Assembly: GCF_002797445.1 (NCBI RefSeq)
Contig: NZ_PGEP01000001.1
Coordinates: 4,898,501 to 4,962,500 of the forward strand
Length of the DNA: 64,000 nucleotides
Source of the DNA: Acidovorax sp. 69
GTDB lineage: Bacteria; Pseudomonadota; Gammaproteobacteria; Burkholderiales; Burkholderiaceae_C
Direction: 5' to 3'
Each line of letters begins with the position of its first letter. The stretch's first letter is position 1. Positions 33,294 to 38,320 of the stretch are shown here, piece by piece. Both the position numbers and the translations under genes were made by a program. The notes beneath the pieces are model-generated. The model was not told the DNA's origin and ran no database searches. It was given only the letters and a program-made list of their open reading frames with translations.

Positions 33294-33345
33294 CTACTAA
33301 ATATATAGCTATCAGCGCTTACCAGATAAGCGTTAGGTGTCATTC
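33291..33345 (-). repeat. Dispersed repeat A, copy 8
   Basis: TAGCTAC, TAGCTATCAGCGCTTACCAG, ATAAGCGTTAGG. It begins at the norR stop and lies directly upstream of the ATPase-PIN-RNA ligase cassette. It is inverted relative to the copy at 36624. Confidence 0.72.
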
Positions 33346-33382
33346 TTATCAGTAAATTGCAAGGCCCTAAGATGGGTTCACC

Positions 33383-34672
33383 ATGATCGACCAACTCCAC
33401 CTGCAGAACGTCAAGGCCTGGCGCGACAGCGGCCCGGTGCGGCTGGCGCCCGTGACCATGCTGCTGGGCGCCAATTCGTCGGGCAAATCCACGCTGCTGC
33501 AAAGCCTGCTGCTGCTCAAGCAGACCGTGGCCTCGCCCGACCGCACCATCCACCTGAACCTGGGCGGCGACGAGGCCAACGACTACTTTCACTTTGGCGG
33601 CTTTGACGCGGTGCTTTCGCGCGGTGTGGCGGCGCCGCGCCAGTTCTCCATCGCGCTGTCGTTTCAGCGGCCCGAGGGCGAGCGCGTGCGCGACGGGCGC
33701 TTTGCCTGCAGCTACGGGCAGACGGCCAGCGGGGCCGTGGCCATCCAGGCGCTGGAGCTGTCCACCGTGGCGCGGCGCTTTCGCGCCGTGCGGCGTGAGC
33801 GCGGCGCCTACGCCATCCATGTGGACGACGAGCCCCGGCCACGCGGCAAGGGCCCGCAACTGGCGCCCGAGCGTTCCATCGCCCTGAGCGCCGAGGCCCT
33901 GGCCCTGCTGGGCAGCGACGGCGCCCATCTGCAGGACCTGAGCCTGGCCCTGCGCCGCGAGCTGGAGGGCATTGTTTACCTCGGCCCGCTGCGCCGCCGC
34001 CCCGAGCGCGATTACGTGTGGAACAAGACGGCGCCCGGCGAGGTGGGCAGCGATGGCCACCAGGCCATCGACGCGCTGCTGGCCAACGCCCTGCTGCCGT
34101 CCGAGCACCAGGGCAGCGTGCTGCGCAGCGTCTTGCACTGGCTGCAGCGCATGGGCATGGCCGAGCAGCTCAGCGTGCGCGCGGTGGGCCGCTCGGGCCG
34201 CTACGAGCTGCTGGTGCACCACGACGGCGTGGTGGCCAACCTGCGCGACGTGGGCGTGGGCGTCTCGCAGGTGCTGCCGGTGCTGGCCGTGGCCTACTGC
34301 GCGCCGCCGGGCAGCACCGTGATGCTGGAAGAGCCCGAAATCCACCTGCACCCGCTGGCCCAGGCCGTGCTGGCCGAAATGTTTGCCGAGGTGAGCCAGC
34401 AGCGCCAGGTGCAGTTTCTCGTCGAAACGCATTCCGAGCACCTGTTTCGCCGCATGCAGACCCTGATTGCCCGGCGCCAGGCCAGCACCGCGCAGTGCCG
34501 CATGCTGTTCGTGGAACGGCGCGGCGCCGACGCCGTGCTGGTGCCGCTGGACGTGGACGAATTCGGTGCCGTGCGCAACTGGCCGCCGCGCTTTTTTGGC
34601 GACGCGATGGGCGAGGCGCGCGAGCAGGCCCGCGCCCGCGCACAGCGACTTCGGGAAGCATCCAGTGGCTGA
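33383..34672 (+). CDS. AAA ATPase of the DUF3696/OLD-like type
   Basis: The 429-residue protein starts MIDQLHLQNVKAWRDSG and has an SMC/OLD-style ATPase layout: Walker A GANSSGKST at 29-37, an ABC-signature-like DVGVGVSQVLPVL at about 289, Walker B VMLEEPEIHLHP at 313-324, and the ETHSEHL motif near 348. The C-terminal part (FVERRG, FGAVRNWPPRFFGD) fits DUF3696. There is no TOPRIM nuclease. Its stop overlaps the start of a PIN-like nuclease gene by eight bases, and an RNA ligase follows. It is probably the sensor or regulator of that nuclease, as ATPases are in several defence systems. Base composition is like the host genome, so transfer is not recent. Confidence 0.85.
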   Translation: MIDQLHLQNVKAWRDSGPVRLAPVTMLLGANSSGKSTLLQSLLLLKQTVASPDRTIHLNLGGDEANDYFHFGGFDAVLSRGVAAPRQFSIALSFQRPEGERVRDGRFACSYGQTASGAVAIQALELSTVARRFRAVRRERGAYAIHVDDEPRPRGKGPQLAPERSIALSAEALALLGSDGAHLQDLSLALRRELEGIVYLGPLRRRPERDYVWNKTAPGEVGSDGHQAIDALLANALLPSEHQGSVLRSVLHWLQRMGMAEQLSVRAVGRSGRYELLVHHDGVVANLRDVGVGVSQVLPVLAVAYCAPPGSTVMLEEPEIHLHPLAQAVLAEMFAEVSQQRQVQFLVETHSEHLFRRMQTLIARRQASTAQCRMLFVERRGADAVLVPLDVDEFGAVRNWPPRFFGDAMGEAREQARARAQRLREASSG

Positions 34673-35228
34673 AGCGAACGCTCTGCAGGCCCGCCTGGTG
34701 GACACCAATGTGCTCATCGTCGCCAGCGCGGTGGATGCGGGCTCGCCCTTTGGTGCCGAATCCACGCCGGTGGAGGACGCCACGCTGCGCCAGCAGGTGT
34801 TCGACTGGCTCGAAGCCTTTGAAGCCGACCCCACGCGCCATGCCGTGCTCGACGTGGACTGGCATGTGTGCGGCGAATACCGCCACAAGCTCACCGAGCA
34901 GGACTACGGCTGGCTGGCCATGATGCACAAGATGGACCGCGGCGAGGTGGTGTGGGTCGATGTGCTGCCCGACAAGGACGGCAACGCCGTGCTGCCGCCC
35001 GAACTGGCCGAGGCCGTGACCGATCTGGCCGACCGCAAGATGGTGGCCGCCGCCCTCGCCGCGCTGGACGCCGGCCACGCCACCCGGATCACCAACGCCG
35101 CCGACACCGACTGGATCGACTGCCAGCAGGCCCTGAACGCCGTGGGGCTGGAGGTGGAGAACCTGCTGCCCGACTGGCTGCAGGCGCGCTGGCGCCAGAA
35201 ACACCCACCCGCGCGGCGCGCAAAATAG
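34665..35228 (+). CDS. PIN-domain-like nuclease
   Basis: About 187 residues from a GTG at 34665 with GGGAAG seven bases upstream. The start RLVDTNVLIVAS has the first PIN aspartate (Asp13) and TN pair. Further acidic positions are Glu71 in VCGEYRHKL, Asp123 in LADRKMVAAAL, and ITNAADTDWID with Asp147/Asp149. This spacing fits a PIN-fold RNase with a two-metal active site. It overlaps the ATPase gene and precedes an RNA ligase by 21 bases. Many PIN proteins are toxins, but no antitoxin-like gene is present; the ATPase may hold it in check. The family call rests on motif pattern only. Confidence 0.7.
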   Translation: MAEANALQARLVDTNVLIVASAVDAGSPFGAESTPVEDATLRQQVFDWLEAFEADPTRHAVLDVDWHVCGEYRHKLTEQDYGWLAMMHKMDRGEVVWVDVLPDKDGNAVLPPELAEAVTDLADRKMVAAALAALDAGHATRITNAADTDWIDCQQALNAVGLEVENLLPDWLQARWRQKHPPARRAK

Positions 35229-35249
35229 GGGTACTCAGAACCCGTTCAT

Positions 35250-35930
35250 ATGTCCGAAGATTTCTTCCGTTTCCCCCACACCCCCCACATCGCCTGGCTG
35301 GCCACGGGCGAGCCGCGCGACGACAAAGTGCTCTCGCCCGCCGAGGCCGACGACCTCCTCAGCGGCCCCGTGGTGCTGGAGGAAAAGCTCGACGGCGCCA
35401 ACCTGGGCTTCTCGGTCTCGCCCGACGGCGTGCTGCGCGCCCAGAACCGGGGCCAGTACCTGCCCCAGCCCTTCCACGGCCAGTTCGCCCGCCTGGGCCC
35501 CTGGCTGGCCGCACACGAAGACAAGCTATTCGACGCCCTGGGCACGCACCTGGTGGCCTTTGGCGAATGGTGCGCCGCGCGCCACTCGCTCGACTACGCC
35601 ACCCTGCCCGACTGGTGGATGCTGTTTGACGTGTACGACCGCCAGGAACAGCGCTTCTGGAGCACCCAGCGCCGCAACGCCTGGGCCGCGCAAATGGGCT
35701 TCAACACCGTGCCCTGCCTGTACGCGGGCGAGGTCTCGCTGGACCAGCTGCGCGACTGGGTGCACGCCCACGACAGCCAGTTCCGCCAGGGCCACCTCGA
35801 AGGCATCGTGGTGCGCCGCGAGAACGCCGACTGGCTGGAAAACCGCGCCAAGCTGGTGCGCGCGGACTTCACGCAGACGATCGAAGCGCACTGGAAGAGC
35901 CGGGCGCTGGAGTGGAATCGGGTGGTGTAA
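35250..35930 (+). CDS. RNA ligase (Rnl2-like nucleotidyltransferase)
   Basis: The 226-residue protein has the motifs of ATP-dependent RNA ligases: motif I EEKLDGANLG with adenylated Lys46, RAQNRGQYL, motif III AFGEWC at 103-108, motif IIIa LFDVYD, motif IV EGIVVR at 184-189, and a motif V-like KLVRADF at 201-207. It seals nicks or breaks in RNA through ligase-AMP and RNA-adenylate. There is no extra C-terminal domain, so it is a minimal ligase. Directly downstream of a PIN-like nuclease and an ATPase, it could repair the same RNA that the nuclease cuts. No close ribosome site is obvious, suggesting coupling to the upstream gene. Confidence 0.87.
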   Translation: MSEDFFRFPHTPHIAWLATGEPRDDKVLSPAEADDLLSGPVVLEEKLDGANLGFSVSPDGVLRAQNRGQYLPQPFHGQFARLGPWLAAHEDKLFDALGTHLVAFGEWCAARHSLDYATLPDWWMLFDVYDRQEQRFWSTQRRNAWAAQMGFNTVPCLYAGEVSLDQLRDWVHAHDSQFRQGHLEGIVVRRENADWLENRAKLVRADFTQTIEAHWKSRALEWNRVV

Positions 35931-36214
35931 AGAAGGGGTTGGCGAACTGAAGACCTGACGCGCGACGTTTGGTATCTTTGTCAAGCCAAGCACCGGACGG
36001 GAGCTTGAAGCCTGCGGCCAACACCGCCCCTCCGGGAGGCTAGTTGCGCACCGGACTGGAGGTCTCTCGACTCAGTACGGCCTGCCATCTCATGCCATTG
36101 AATTCACGGGTGTTGCGATGCCTGAACCGGTGTGGCACCCACCCAGGCTCCCTGCCCACGCGCAGCGTAGCGGTGGCGCATACGATAGGGCCCTCACGCG
36201 CAGAGGTCTGCACC

Positions 36215-36613
36215 ATGCCCACCCCCAAAAACAGCGCCCCTGCCGTTGCCAAGGCAAAGCCCAAGAAACCTGCCGCACCGGCGGCCAAGCCTTTCCTGCG
36301 CTTTTACCATTCGGCGCCGTTGCGGGCCAAGACGCTTCAAGTGCTGGATGCCGTGGAAAGCGCCGACAAACCGACCGAGCATTCCGGGCGCCTCTCGGAT
36401 TTGATTCTGGAACTGACGGATGCCGGCATGGATCGGTTTTTTCTGCAATCGCTCAAGGCTACCAAGGCGAATTTCGTGGTCCAGCAGTCGGCGTCGCTGG
36501 GCCTGGCGGGGGTACAAAAGGTGATGGGCACGGTGATCCGCAACATCGTGGGCCGCATGGACGACAAGCAACTGCTCTCGGTCTGCGGTTCGATTCGCCA
36601 GTTCATGGTTTAA
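36215..36613 (+). CDS. Conserved hypothetical protein with basic N-terminus
   Basis: About 132 residues from MPTPKNSAPAVAKAKPKKPA. The first 28 residues are Ala/Lys/Pro-rich, like a nucleic-acid-binding or flexible tail. The rest (FLRFYHSAPLRAKTLQVLDA, LTDAGMDRFFLQSLK, GSIRQFMV) is predicted helical, with no transmembrane segment or known motif. The frame is open upstream to 36044, but the lysine-rich start looks like the natural one. I do not recognise a function. The 284 bp before it (35931-36214) hold no convincing gene. It may or may not belong with the ATPase-PIN-ligase cassette. Confidence 0.68.
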   Translation: MPTPKNSAPAVAKAKPKKPAAPAAKPFLRFYHSAPLRAKTLQVLDAVESADKPTEHSGRLSDLILELTDAGMDRFFLQSLKATKANFVVQQSASLGLAGVQKVMGTVIRNIVGRMDDKQLLSVCGSIRQFMV

Positions 36614-36623
36614 GCGAAATTCG

Positions 36624-36666
36624 CCCCGCGCGCTTATCCATCAAGCGCTGACAGCTATCATTTTCG
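36624..36666 (+). repeat. Dispersed repeat A, copy 9
   Basis: GCGCGCTTATCCATCAAGCGCTGACAGCTATCATTTTC pattern, between the hypothetical gene and the GGDEF gene. It is in opposite orientation to the copy at 33291. Confidence 0.7.
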
Positions 36667-36733
36667 ATGCTTTCTTGGCCGCCATAGGGCGCTGAGGGGT
36701 TGCAGCTGCTGCGTGCAACGCGTCGCGCGCCGT

Positions 36734-38167
36734 TCAAGCGGCCTGGGCAGAGCCGGGCGCGAACTGGATCCGGTTGCGGCCCTCTTCCTTGGCCTGGTAC
36801 ATCGCCACGTCTGCCCGGTCGATCACCGCGTTCTGGCTCTCATCGCGCCCACGGAAGACCGCCACGCCGATGCTGGCGGTGCATTCGTGCCGGATGGCCG
36901 GGGCGGAGGGCGCGGACCGCAGCACGTAGGGTTCGGCCAGGCGGGTGCGAATTTTCTCCGCAATGGCGGCAGCCTGTTCGGTGGCTTCGCCGTGTTGCAT
37001 ACCCAGTTCGCACAGCAGCACGACGAACTCGTCGCCGCCAAAGCGGGCCACGGTGTCGGCTTCGCGCACGCAGGCTTTCAGGCGCTCAGCCACTTCGATC
37101 AGCAACAGGTCGCCCACGCCGTGGCCGTGGGTGTCGTTGAGGGGCTTGAAGTTGTCAAGGTCGAGGAACAGCAGCGCGCCATGGCGCTGGCTGCGCTTGC
37201 TGGCCGACATGGCCTGGTCCAGGTGCTCCAGCATCAGGCGGCGGTTGGCCAGGCGGGTGAGGGGGTCGTGGAAGGCGAGCTCGCGCACCTGCTCTTCCAG
37301 CCGCTTGCGCTCGGTGATCTCGCGCGTGATGCCGTGGTAGCCGATGATTTCGCCTTGCTCGTTGCGGTCGGGTTTGGACAGCACCTCGCCCCAGATCAGA
37401 CGGCCGTCTTTGCAGCGGTGCTCCACCTGGAAGCGCAGGAATCCCCCGGCACTGCCTGCCGAGTCCTCGATCGCCCGGCGCCGGATCATGCCCTTGACCA
37501 GTTCGACGCCTTCGTCGGTGAACATCTCGAAGGCGGGGTGTCCCACCACCTCGTCAGCCGGGAAGCCCCGCAGGCTTTCGTCGGACGGGCTGATGTAGCT
37601 GACGATGAGCCGACTGTCCGTGCGCCAGAGCACATCCGGCGTGTCTTCCGCCAGCAAGCGGTACAGGGTCTGGCTTTCATGCAGCGCCTGGGTACGCTCG
37701 GTTACCAGGGCCTGCAGGGCGCTGTTTTGCTCCTCCAGGCTTTTGAGGGGGTACACCTCGCCGTCCTGCGCGCTTTGGCAGGGAATGGAAATGCCGCTGT
37801 GCACGATCATCCACTCTGACCCTTCCAGACGGAAGATCAGCACCAGTCGCGCCGTCTCCCTCGACAACTGCTGCCCACCAGGGGGCAGGTAGATATGGAG
37901 GAAGGCGGTCGCCACAACGACGTCGTCGCAAAGGTCCTGCAGCGCAAGGTCCAGCATTTCAATGCGAATGCGGCCCGGTACTTGGGCAAAGTCCTGCCGG
38001 GTGATACGGACCCACTCCTCGCGGTCGTGGATCAGCCGGGTCCCGCTGCCGTGGTAGCCGCTGAAGTTCTGGCTGAAGCGTGCCGTGAGGCGGTCATCCC
38101 GTGCGGCGTACATCTCGATGTACTCGTCGAACAGTGCGCGGATCTTGCTCTGGCGATCTGGGGGCAT
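36734..38167 (-). CDS. PAS-GGDEF diguanylate cyclase with an NTF2-like sensory domain
   Basis: About 477 residues from MPPDRQSKIRALFDEYIEMY, with AGGA upstream; an ATG at 38212 is possible. Residues about 1-135 look like an NTF2/SnoaL-type domain (FSGYHGSGTRLIHDREEW, LVLIFRLEGSEWMIVHSG). A PAS domain follows (YRLLAEDTPDVLWRTDS, GYHGITREITERKR). The C-terminal GGDEF domain has an intact active site RFGGDEFVVLL and an ASIGVAVF motif. It should make cyclic di-GMP in response to a small ligand or redox cue. No transmembrane segment is seen, so it is probably cytoplasmic. It is divergent from ilvA. Confidence 0.9.
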   Translation of the reverse strand: MPPDRQSKIRALFDEYIEMYAARDDRLTARFSQNFSGYHGSGTRLIHDREEWVRITRQDFAQVPGRIRIEMLDLALQDLCDDVVVATAFLHIYLPPGGQQLSRETARLVLIFRLEGSEWMIVHSGISIPCQSAQDGEVYPLKSLEEQNSALQALVTERTQALHESQTLYRLLAEDTPDVLWRTDSRLIVSYISPSDESLRGFPADEVVGHPAFEMFTDEGVELVKGMIRRRAIEDSAGSAGGFLRFQVEHRCKDGRLIWGEVLSKPDRNEQGEIIGYHGITREITERKRLEEQVRELAFHDPLTRLANRRLMLEHLDQAMSASKRSQRHGALLFLDLDNFKPLNDTHGHGVGDLLLIEVAERLKACVREADTVARFGGDEFVVLLCELGMQHGEATEQAAAIAEKIRTRLAEPYVLRSAPSAPAIRHECTASIGVAVFRGRDESQNAVIDRADVAMYQAKEEGRNRIQFAPGSAQAA

Positions 38168-38320
38168 GGTGATGAAATCCTGGTGGTCGGGAACATCCCG
38201 GACAACGCCCATGGCCACTGCGAGGCACACACCACGATACGTTTTGTTACTTTACACCGCCGCCTGCCGGAACAGGAGAATGCATCCCTCCTTGCGGCAT
38301 TTGTTGCCACAATGCCGGGC

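Follow-up and report, generated by a model that had tools for sequence, protein, structure and literature searches.

Immunity that works by cutting RNA is often viewed as suicidal, and the RNA ligases that appear in it are best known as counter-weapons of phages. Several systems come close to the locus reported here. The candidate pair HEC-03 takes its name from "Hma-embedded candidate" (Payne et al. 2024, as papers citing that work report it). HARP, a PIN protein, co-occurs with an RNA ligase in 665 of 751 HARP-positive genomes according to the accessible text of PMC12153264. The AriB nuclease of PARIS leaves 3'-OH ends, and 5'-phosphate/3'-hydroxyl ends are expected of two-metal nucleases generally, in the available portion of PMC12409363. 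Here we describe a trio of genes for an ATPase, a predicted PIN-fold nuclease and a minimal RNA ligase in Acidovorax sp. 69, whose genome is one 4.97-Mb contig; the window is the whole 64,000-nucleotide stretch analysed (NZ_PGEP01000001.1, positions 4,898,501 to 4,962,500). We show that these three protein families are linked, that the block is present in some relatives and absent from others, and that copies in several other genomes have defence genes around them. The features, in window positions, are as follows.

33383..34672, + strand: ATPase of 429 aa (DUF3696 / AAA_15-AAA_21; OLD-like, ABC-type), presumed to act as sensor or gate (Pfam, PADLOC, Walker motifs)
34665..35228, + strand: predicted PIN-fold nuclease, 187 aa, GTG start
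35250..35930, + strand: RNA ligase of 226 aa, minimal and ATP-dependent, consisting of the nucleotidyltransferase domain only
33333..35937, + strand: block present or absent in relatives between norR and the threonine ammonia-lyase gene, approximate extent (nine trio-free relatives and genome G007)

Anatomy and conservation of the three genes

The ATPase gene runs from an ATG at 33383 to a TGA at 34670-34672, the PIN gene opens at the GTG at 34665 and overlaps it by 8 bases, and the ligase ATG at 35250 lies 21 bases past the end of the PIN gene. The initial annotation had called these three open reading frames (ORFs), the first two overlapping and the third 21 bases on, and a check of frames and coordinates bore it out in each respect. 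All three genes give dN/dS values of 0.075-0.454 over 10 pairwise comparisons, and their order is conserved across phyla; chance adjacency is therefore rejected, confirming that these are real genes in real linkage. A promoter scan of the trio region found none, terminator-like sites were no more frequent than the shuffled level, and a search for non-coding RNAs returned a single match, below gathering score and inside the ATPase gene, which we regard as chance.

The ATPase matches AAA_21 (PF13304, 1.8e-22) and AAA_15 (PF13175, 1.1e-20) above cutoff, DUF3696 (PF12476) at 31.5 bits against a cutoff of 22, and the PADLOC model HEC-03B at 277.5 bits (5.6e-83; the search reports no cutoff for PADLOC models). 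The Walker A (GANSSGKST, residue 29) and Walker B (LEEPEIHLHP, residue 315) motifs named in the initial annotation are both present, and G29, N31, S32, G34, K35 and S36 of the former and E316 of the latter are invariant in 32 of 32 ATPases. The second acidic residue of Walker B (within residues 315-324, window 34325-34354) is Glu in 22 of the 32 and Gln in 10; a Glu-to-Gln change in this motif slows hydrolysis in ABC ATPases. The sole match of the ATPase in a sequence search of the PDB was an OLD-family endonuclease (1.6e-6).

The middle protein takes a PIN fold in its structure model (VIA-align). Because plain Foldseek with that model gave no match at E<=0.001, the assignment draws on VIA-align, the order of secondary-structure elements and the residue pattern. 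The protein has no Pfam match of note, Pfam PIN models fall below cutoff across nine relatives scanned (best PIN_3, 14.6 bits), and the PIN profile matched no PDB sequence at E<=1. In an alignment of 42 rows, D13 is conserved in all 39 that have a residue there (3 gaps), and E71 and D123 each in 41 of 41 (1 gap each); position 147 holds D in 39 rows, E in 2 others and F in that of the decayed copy L072. D63 and D120 are likewise invariant (41/41 rows), and D149 is invariant across 40 near homologues, yet Lys in most HEC-03A-like rows. The acidic pattern first proposed (residues 13, 71, 123, 147 and 149) thus stands for D13, E71 and D123 and very nearly for D147; D149 holds among near homologues only, and D63 and D120 had been overlooked. 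Against HEC-03A the window protein scores 31.9 bits (3e-8) over model positions 82-153 of 159, about half the profile, and seven other PINs scanned score 71-96 bits (five) or 30-32 bits (two). The predicted structure with its conserved acidic residues, although Pfam's PIN models miss their cutoffs, identifies the middle protein as a PIN-fold protein of predicted nuclease activity.

The ligase matches RNA_ligase (PF09414) at 119.1 bits (cutoff 27, 3e-34) and carries Lys46, FGEWC and EGIVVR; with a ligase fold also modelled, its earlier description as a minimal RNA ligase with these motifs is confirmed. All 11 motif residues checked, motif V among them, are invariant in 39 of 39 ligases. The model aligns only with residues 0-231 of a 319-residue Rnl2 chain, so the C-terminal accessory domain of the T4 Rnl2 family proper is absent. 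Against TIGR01209 the ligase reaches 13.8 bits (cutoff 136.9), and no PADLOC model matched it at E<=1. Searched against PDB sequences, the single protein found two weak unrelated matches and a ligase profile found 3qwu only (0.0031). The trio offers a small RNA ligase family, of 226 aa in the window.

Over 29 loci the median pairwise identity is 60% for the ligase, 52% for the ATPase and 41% for PIN. Between the window and four loci (L032, L033, L034 and L036) the ATPases are 74-82% identical and the ligases 87-97%, a pattern that would fit a sensor ATPase evolving more quickly than the parts that cut and seal. Shared descent confounds the Mantel correlations (0.944, 0.795 and 0.807), which we do not take as proof of interaction.

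Linkage, carriage and surroundings

Among 60 relatives, the window genome counted, the trio is adjacent in all five that carry PIN, and the ligase adjoins PIN at 14 of 14 genome_contigs loci (in L029 the contig ends within the ligase, L038 starts inside PIN with the ATPase out of view, and L039 is decayed). Among the named records that carry a close copy of the middle protein are Acidovorax, Simplicispira, Giesbergeria and Comamonas. We also used a family set of 399 genomes and a phylum set of 398, which overlap and both contain the window genome. PIN occurs in 10 genomes of each, 19 distinct genomes, with the ligase adjacent in 16; the three without an intact adjacent ligase are L067 and L071, which have ATPase and PIN only, and the decayed L072. 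Approached from the ligase, all 24 genomes with a match of at least 270 bits have PIN directly upstream, and 21 have the ATPase ahead of PIN (at L125 only the end of PIN is visible at a contig edge, the ATPase side being cut off). This linkage is partly by construction, since the ligase profile was made from trio and pair ligases; the first PIN profile (A1) was built independently of the 24 loci. A further 25 genomes hold only lower-scoring ligases, and because PIN was absent beside the ligase in all eight inspected (E<=0.01), the PIN-ligase linkage characterises a single ligase subfamily. The initial annotation had proposed ATPase, PIN nuclease and RNA ligase as a single module, and both the predicted folds and this co-occurrence, in the five relatives and beside the 24 close ligases, support it.

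Two genomes of one genus have a PIN-ligase pair with no recognisable ATPase (L064:6945-8234 and L121:7466-8842). Such ATPase-free copies suggest that the pair is a unit, while the ligase-free copies show, as far as gene content goes, a ligase that is probably dispensable in some settings.

In nine trio-free relatives, chosen among the genomes that match norR strongly, 35-197 bp (eight) or about 1 kb (one) separate the norR side from the threonine ammonia-lyase side. Genome G007 has the trio block between norR and threonine ammonia-lyase without the extra genes seen in the window. Those extra genes (36044-38230, between the trio and threonine ammonia-lyase) are a small gene with no Pfam or NCBIfam match and a SnoaL-PAS-GGDEF gene on the minus strand; both are absent from that site in G007 and in the nine empty-site relatives. 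Since 6 of 16 other near loci retain norR, trio and threonine ammonia-lyase in this arrangement, either loss at the empty sites or gain at the filled ones could explain the difference.

Ligase matches occur in 21 plasmid records. Of seven examined in detail, five have the order ATPase-PIN-ligase (Aeromonas salmonicida, A. veronii, Azotobacter chroococcum, Tistrella mobilis and Rhodococcus aetherivorans). On an A. caviae plasmid (L175:2476-6474) an insertion sequence splits the ligase while the ATPase and PIN annotations remain, and a Pseudomonas plasmid (L176:5956-7974) has a distant RNA ligase of larger size with an AAA ATPase gene after it, and no PIN. Among 33 loci from viral collections the whole trio is found in three (L138, L140 and L141), and L137 begins at the ligase. 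Phage records yielded distant ligases only (17 records, all <=29.6% identity), and a blastn search of E. coli genomes with the Aeromonas trio found no match. An 80-kb IMG/VR contig with many short, mostly co-directional ORFs has a lone trio-family ligase of 268 bits (L139:5998-6663); no PIN or ATPase lies within the 12.6 kb examined, and the ligase alone of eight ORFs there matched PHROGs. At two loci from different genera (L122:6635-13764 and L123:6413-13542) the trio sits between a 1032-aa and a 447-aa ORF, each 96% identical between the loci, forming a larger shared block; the longer ORF has a ResIII domain in L122, and the shorter ORF has no Pfam match at E<=1e-5.

Several copies elsewhere lie among genes of virus defence. 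The L127 trio has a Schlafen-type gene behind Ppl on one side and BrxHI (1440 bits) with PglZ on the other, a BREX-like locus; L075 adjoins an HmaB-like methylase, and L073 a helicase for which PLD_Helicase is the best model. The ligase-less ATPase and PIN of L067 (2055-12242) lie between DrmMI- and DrmD-like genes, apparently in a DISARM-type locus. The neighbours at these four loci come from 10 of 126 called ORFs, chosen by eye as long adjoining ORFs; a PADLOC scan that took in 63 of these ORFs, one of which is also among the ten, matched 11 families at E<=1e-15, with 1-3 members to each family. The prophage contig L138 has an AbiJ-domain gene ahead of the trio and a terminase about 4 kb beyond it, an integrase lies ahead of the trio in L140, and the Aeromonas conjugative plasmids carry AbiEii, Hok and GASH annotations nearby. 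These surroundings in several other genomes suggest that the trio may be a defence module.

Possible roles of the trio

We give an even chance to a mobile three-gene defence module in which an ATPase gates a PIN RNase that comes with its own repair ligase. The DUF3696 ATPase would sense infection and gate PIN, which would then cut an essential RNA and leave 5'-phosphate/3'-hydroxyl ends; the likeliest target is a tRNA or an rRNA loop, as for VapC. PIN nucleases leave such ends, and Rnl2-type ligases join them without an end-healing enzyme. Because the two chemistries match, the trio would need no end-healing kinase or phosphatase, and neither is found among the three genes. The ligase could thus be a matched repair enzyme that reseals leaky cuts in uninfected cells, so setting a threshold, or that permits recovery after infection. 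The initial annotation likewise saw the ligase as either restoring RNA that had been cut or serving as an antidote, and both roles are hypothetical. The invariance of catalytic residues in both PIN and ligase supports this scheme. If an RNase with its own ligase and no end-healing enzyme proves widespread in bacteria, recovery after RNA-targeting immunity becomes directly testable.

Several points weigh against a gated defence module. The window locus is no defence island: norB, norR, a GGDEF gene and threonine ammonia-lyase are its neighbours. The defence role first proposed has indirect support from copies in or beside BREX-like, HmaB-like, AbiJ and AbiEii genes, whereas the window copy lies between norR and threonine ammonia-lyase. 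PADLOC covered 72 of the 126 neighbour ORFs, few of the 63 unselected ones matched, and the counts have no background control. In 21 of the 35 family-set genomes with any ligase match, the only ligase is a lower-scoring one not tied to trios, and the copies without ligase (L067, L071) or without ATPase (L064, L121) mean that the trio is not obligatory. PIN-superfamily nucleases can, moreover, act on DNA.

It is possible, though we hold this more tentatively, that the module performs a reversible RNA restriction, with immunity set by the balance between the PIN RNase and its chemically matched ligase so that an infected cell could recover and need not die. Were this so, one would predict phages that encode the ligase to counter the defence, and the lone ligase of viral-collection contig L139 is a possible example. 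That ligase would also suit the favoured defence module if sealing antagonises the cut. An unlikely alternative, but one with real points in its favour, is a housekeeping or stress role in RNA maturation or repair, where one particular RNA would be trimmed or cut by PIN and then joined or circularised by the ligase, as proposed for HARP and Rnl3, with the ATPase as a remodeller. The frequent company of HARP and RNA ligase, the stable metabolic place between norR and threonine ammonia-lyase implied by 6 of the 16 near loci in the window's lineage, and the ligase being the most conserved part all suit it; its patchy distribution in the family and phylum sets, plasmid- and prophage-like carriage, sites in BREX-like and HmaB-like loci and the decayed copies L039 and L072 do not.

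Doubtful, too, is a ligase that belongs to the attack, mis-joining or 5'-adenylating PIN-cut RNA and so blocking its restoration by a phage ligase. Its bare nucleotidyltransferase domain is of the kind seen in truncated T4 Rnl2, known for AppRNA chemistry, and we count this in favour. An Rnl3 that adenylates strongly and ligates weakly, in the accessible text of PMC12153264, points the same way. The ligase-less copy between DISARM-like genes speaks against it, as the cut alone seems useful there, as does the invariance of all 11 motif residues checked, including motif V. We think it improbable that the trio acts on DNA, an ATPase-gated PIN/FEN-like nuclease nicking invading DNA and the ligase sealing that of the host, although the PIN superfamily includes DNA nucleases, the ATPase found an OLD-family endonuclease in the PDB, and the module can accompany DNA-restriction systems; the defence module with a repair ligase remains our preferred reading.

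Comparison with known systems

The trio shares with VapBC the PIN fold, and its acidic residues form a series similar to the order known in VapC; it has no small DNA-binding antitoxin beside PIN, whose neighbours are a 429-aa ATPase and the ligase, and VapBC was rejected. PrrC against T4 Pnk/Rnl1 likewise opposes RNA cutting to RNA sealing in phage conflict, but there the ligase is the phage's and works with a kinase (accessible part of PMC12409363), whereas the trio ligase belongs to the bacterial module and neither window flank is a kinase gene. PARIS also places a related ATPase (AriA) beside a small metal-dependent RNase (AriB). It differs in that the trio effector models as PIN and not Toprim, AriA models fit the trio ATPase far worse (1.5e-21 against 5.6e-83 for HEC-03B), and PARIS, to our knowledge, has no ligase.

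HARP with Rnl3 shares a PIN-superfamily nuclease linked to an ATP-dependent RNA ligase gene; in the available text of PMC12153264 an ATPase partner is not named, and Rnl3 usually lies in opposite orientation to HARP. Membership was rejected on the ligase, which fails the TIGR01209 cutoff; PIN has no Pfam PIN_5 match at E<=1. A distant kinship of the two PIN proteins, approached by comparing modelled folds, may or may not hold.

The initial annotation knew of no described system with exactly this trio. We too found no description of it in the literature searched (titles and the beginnings of abstracts, with preprints and most subscription journals outside), where an earlier mention is possible. 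Its parts have precedents, however: PIN with ligase in HARP/Rnl3 (as far as PMC12153264 is accessible), and ATPase with PIN in the candidate HEC-03 pair. The trio ATPase matches HEC-03B at 277 bits in the window, 428 in L067 and 445 in L170, the trio PIN matches HEC-03A at 32 bits in the window and 96 in L067, and one trio copy adjoins an HmaB-like methylase. The window PIN is of a distant subfamily, and the third gene matches none of the PADLOC models at E<=1; a widespread trio would add an RNA ligase component to the candidate pair HEC-03.
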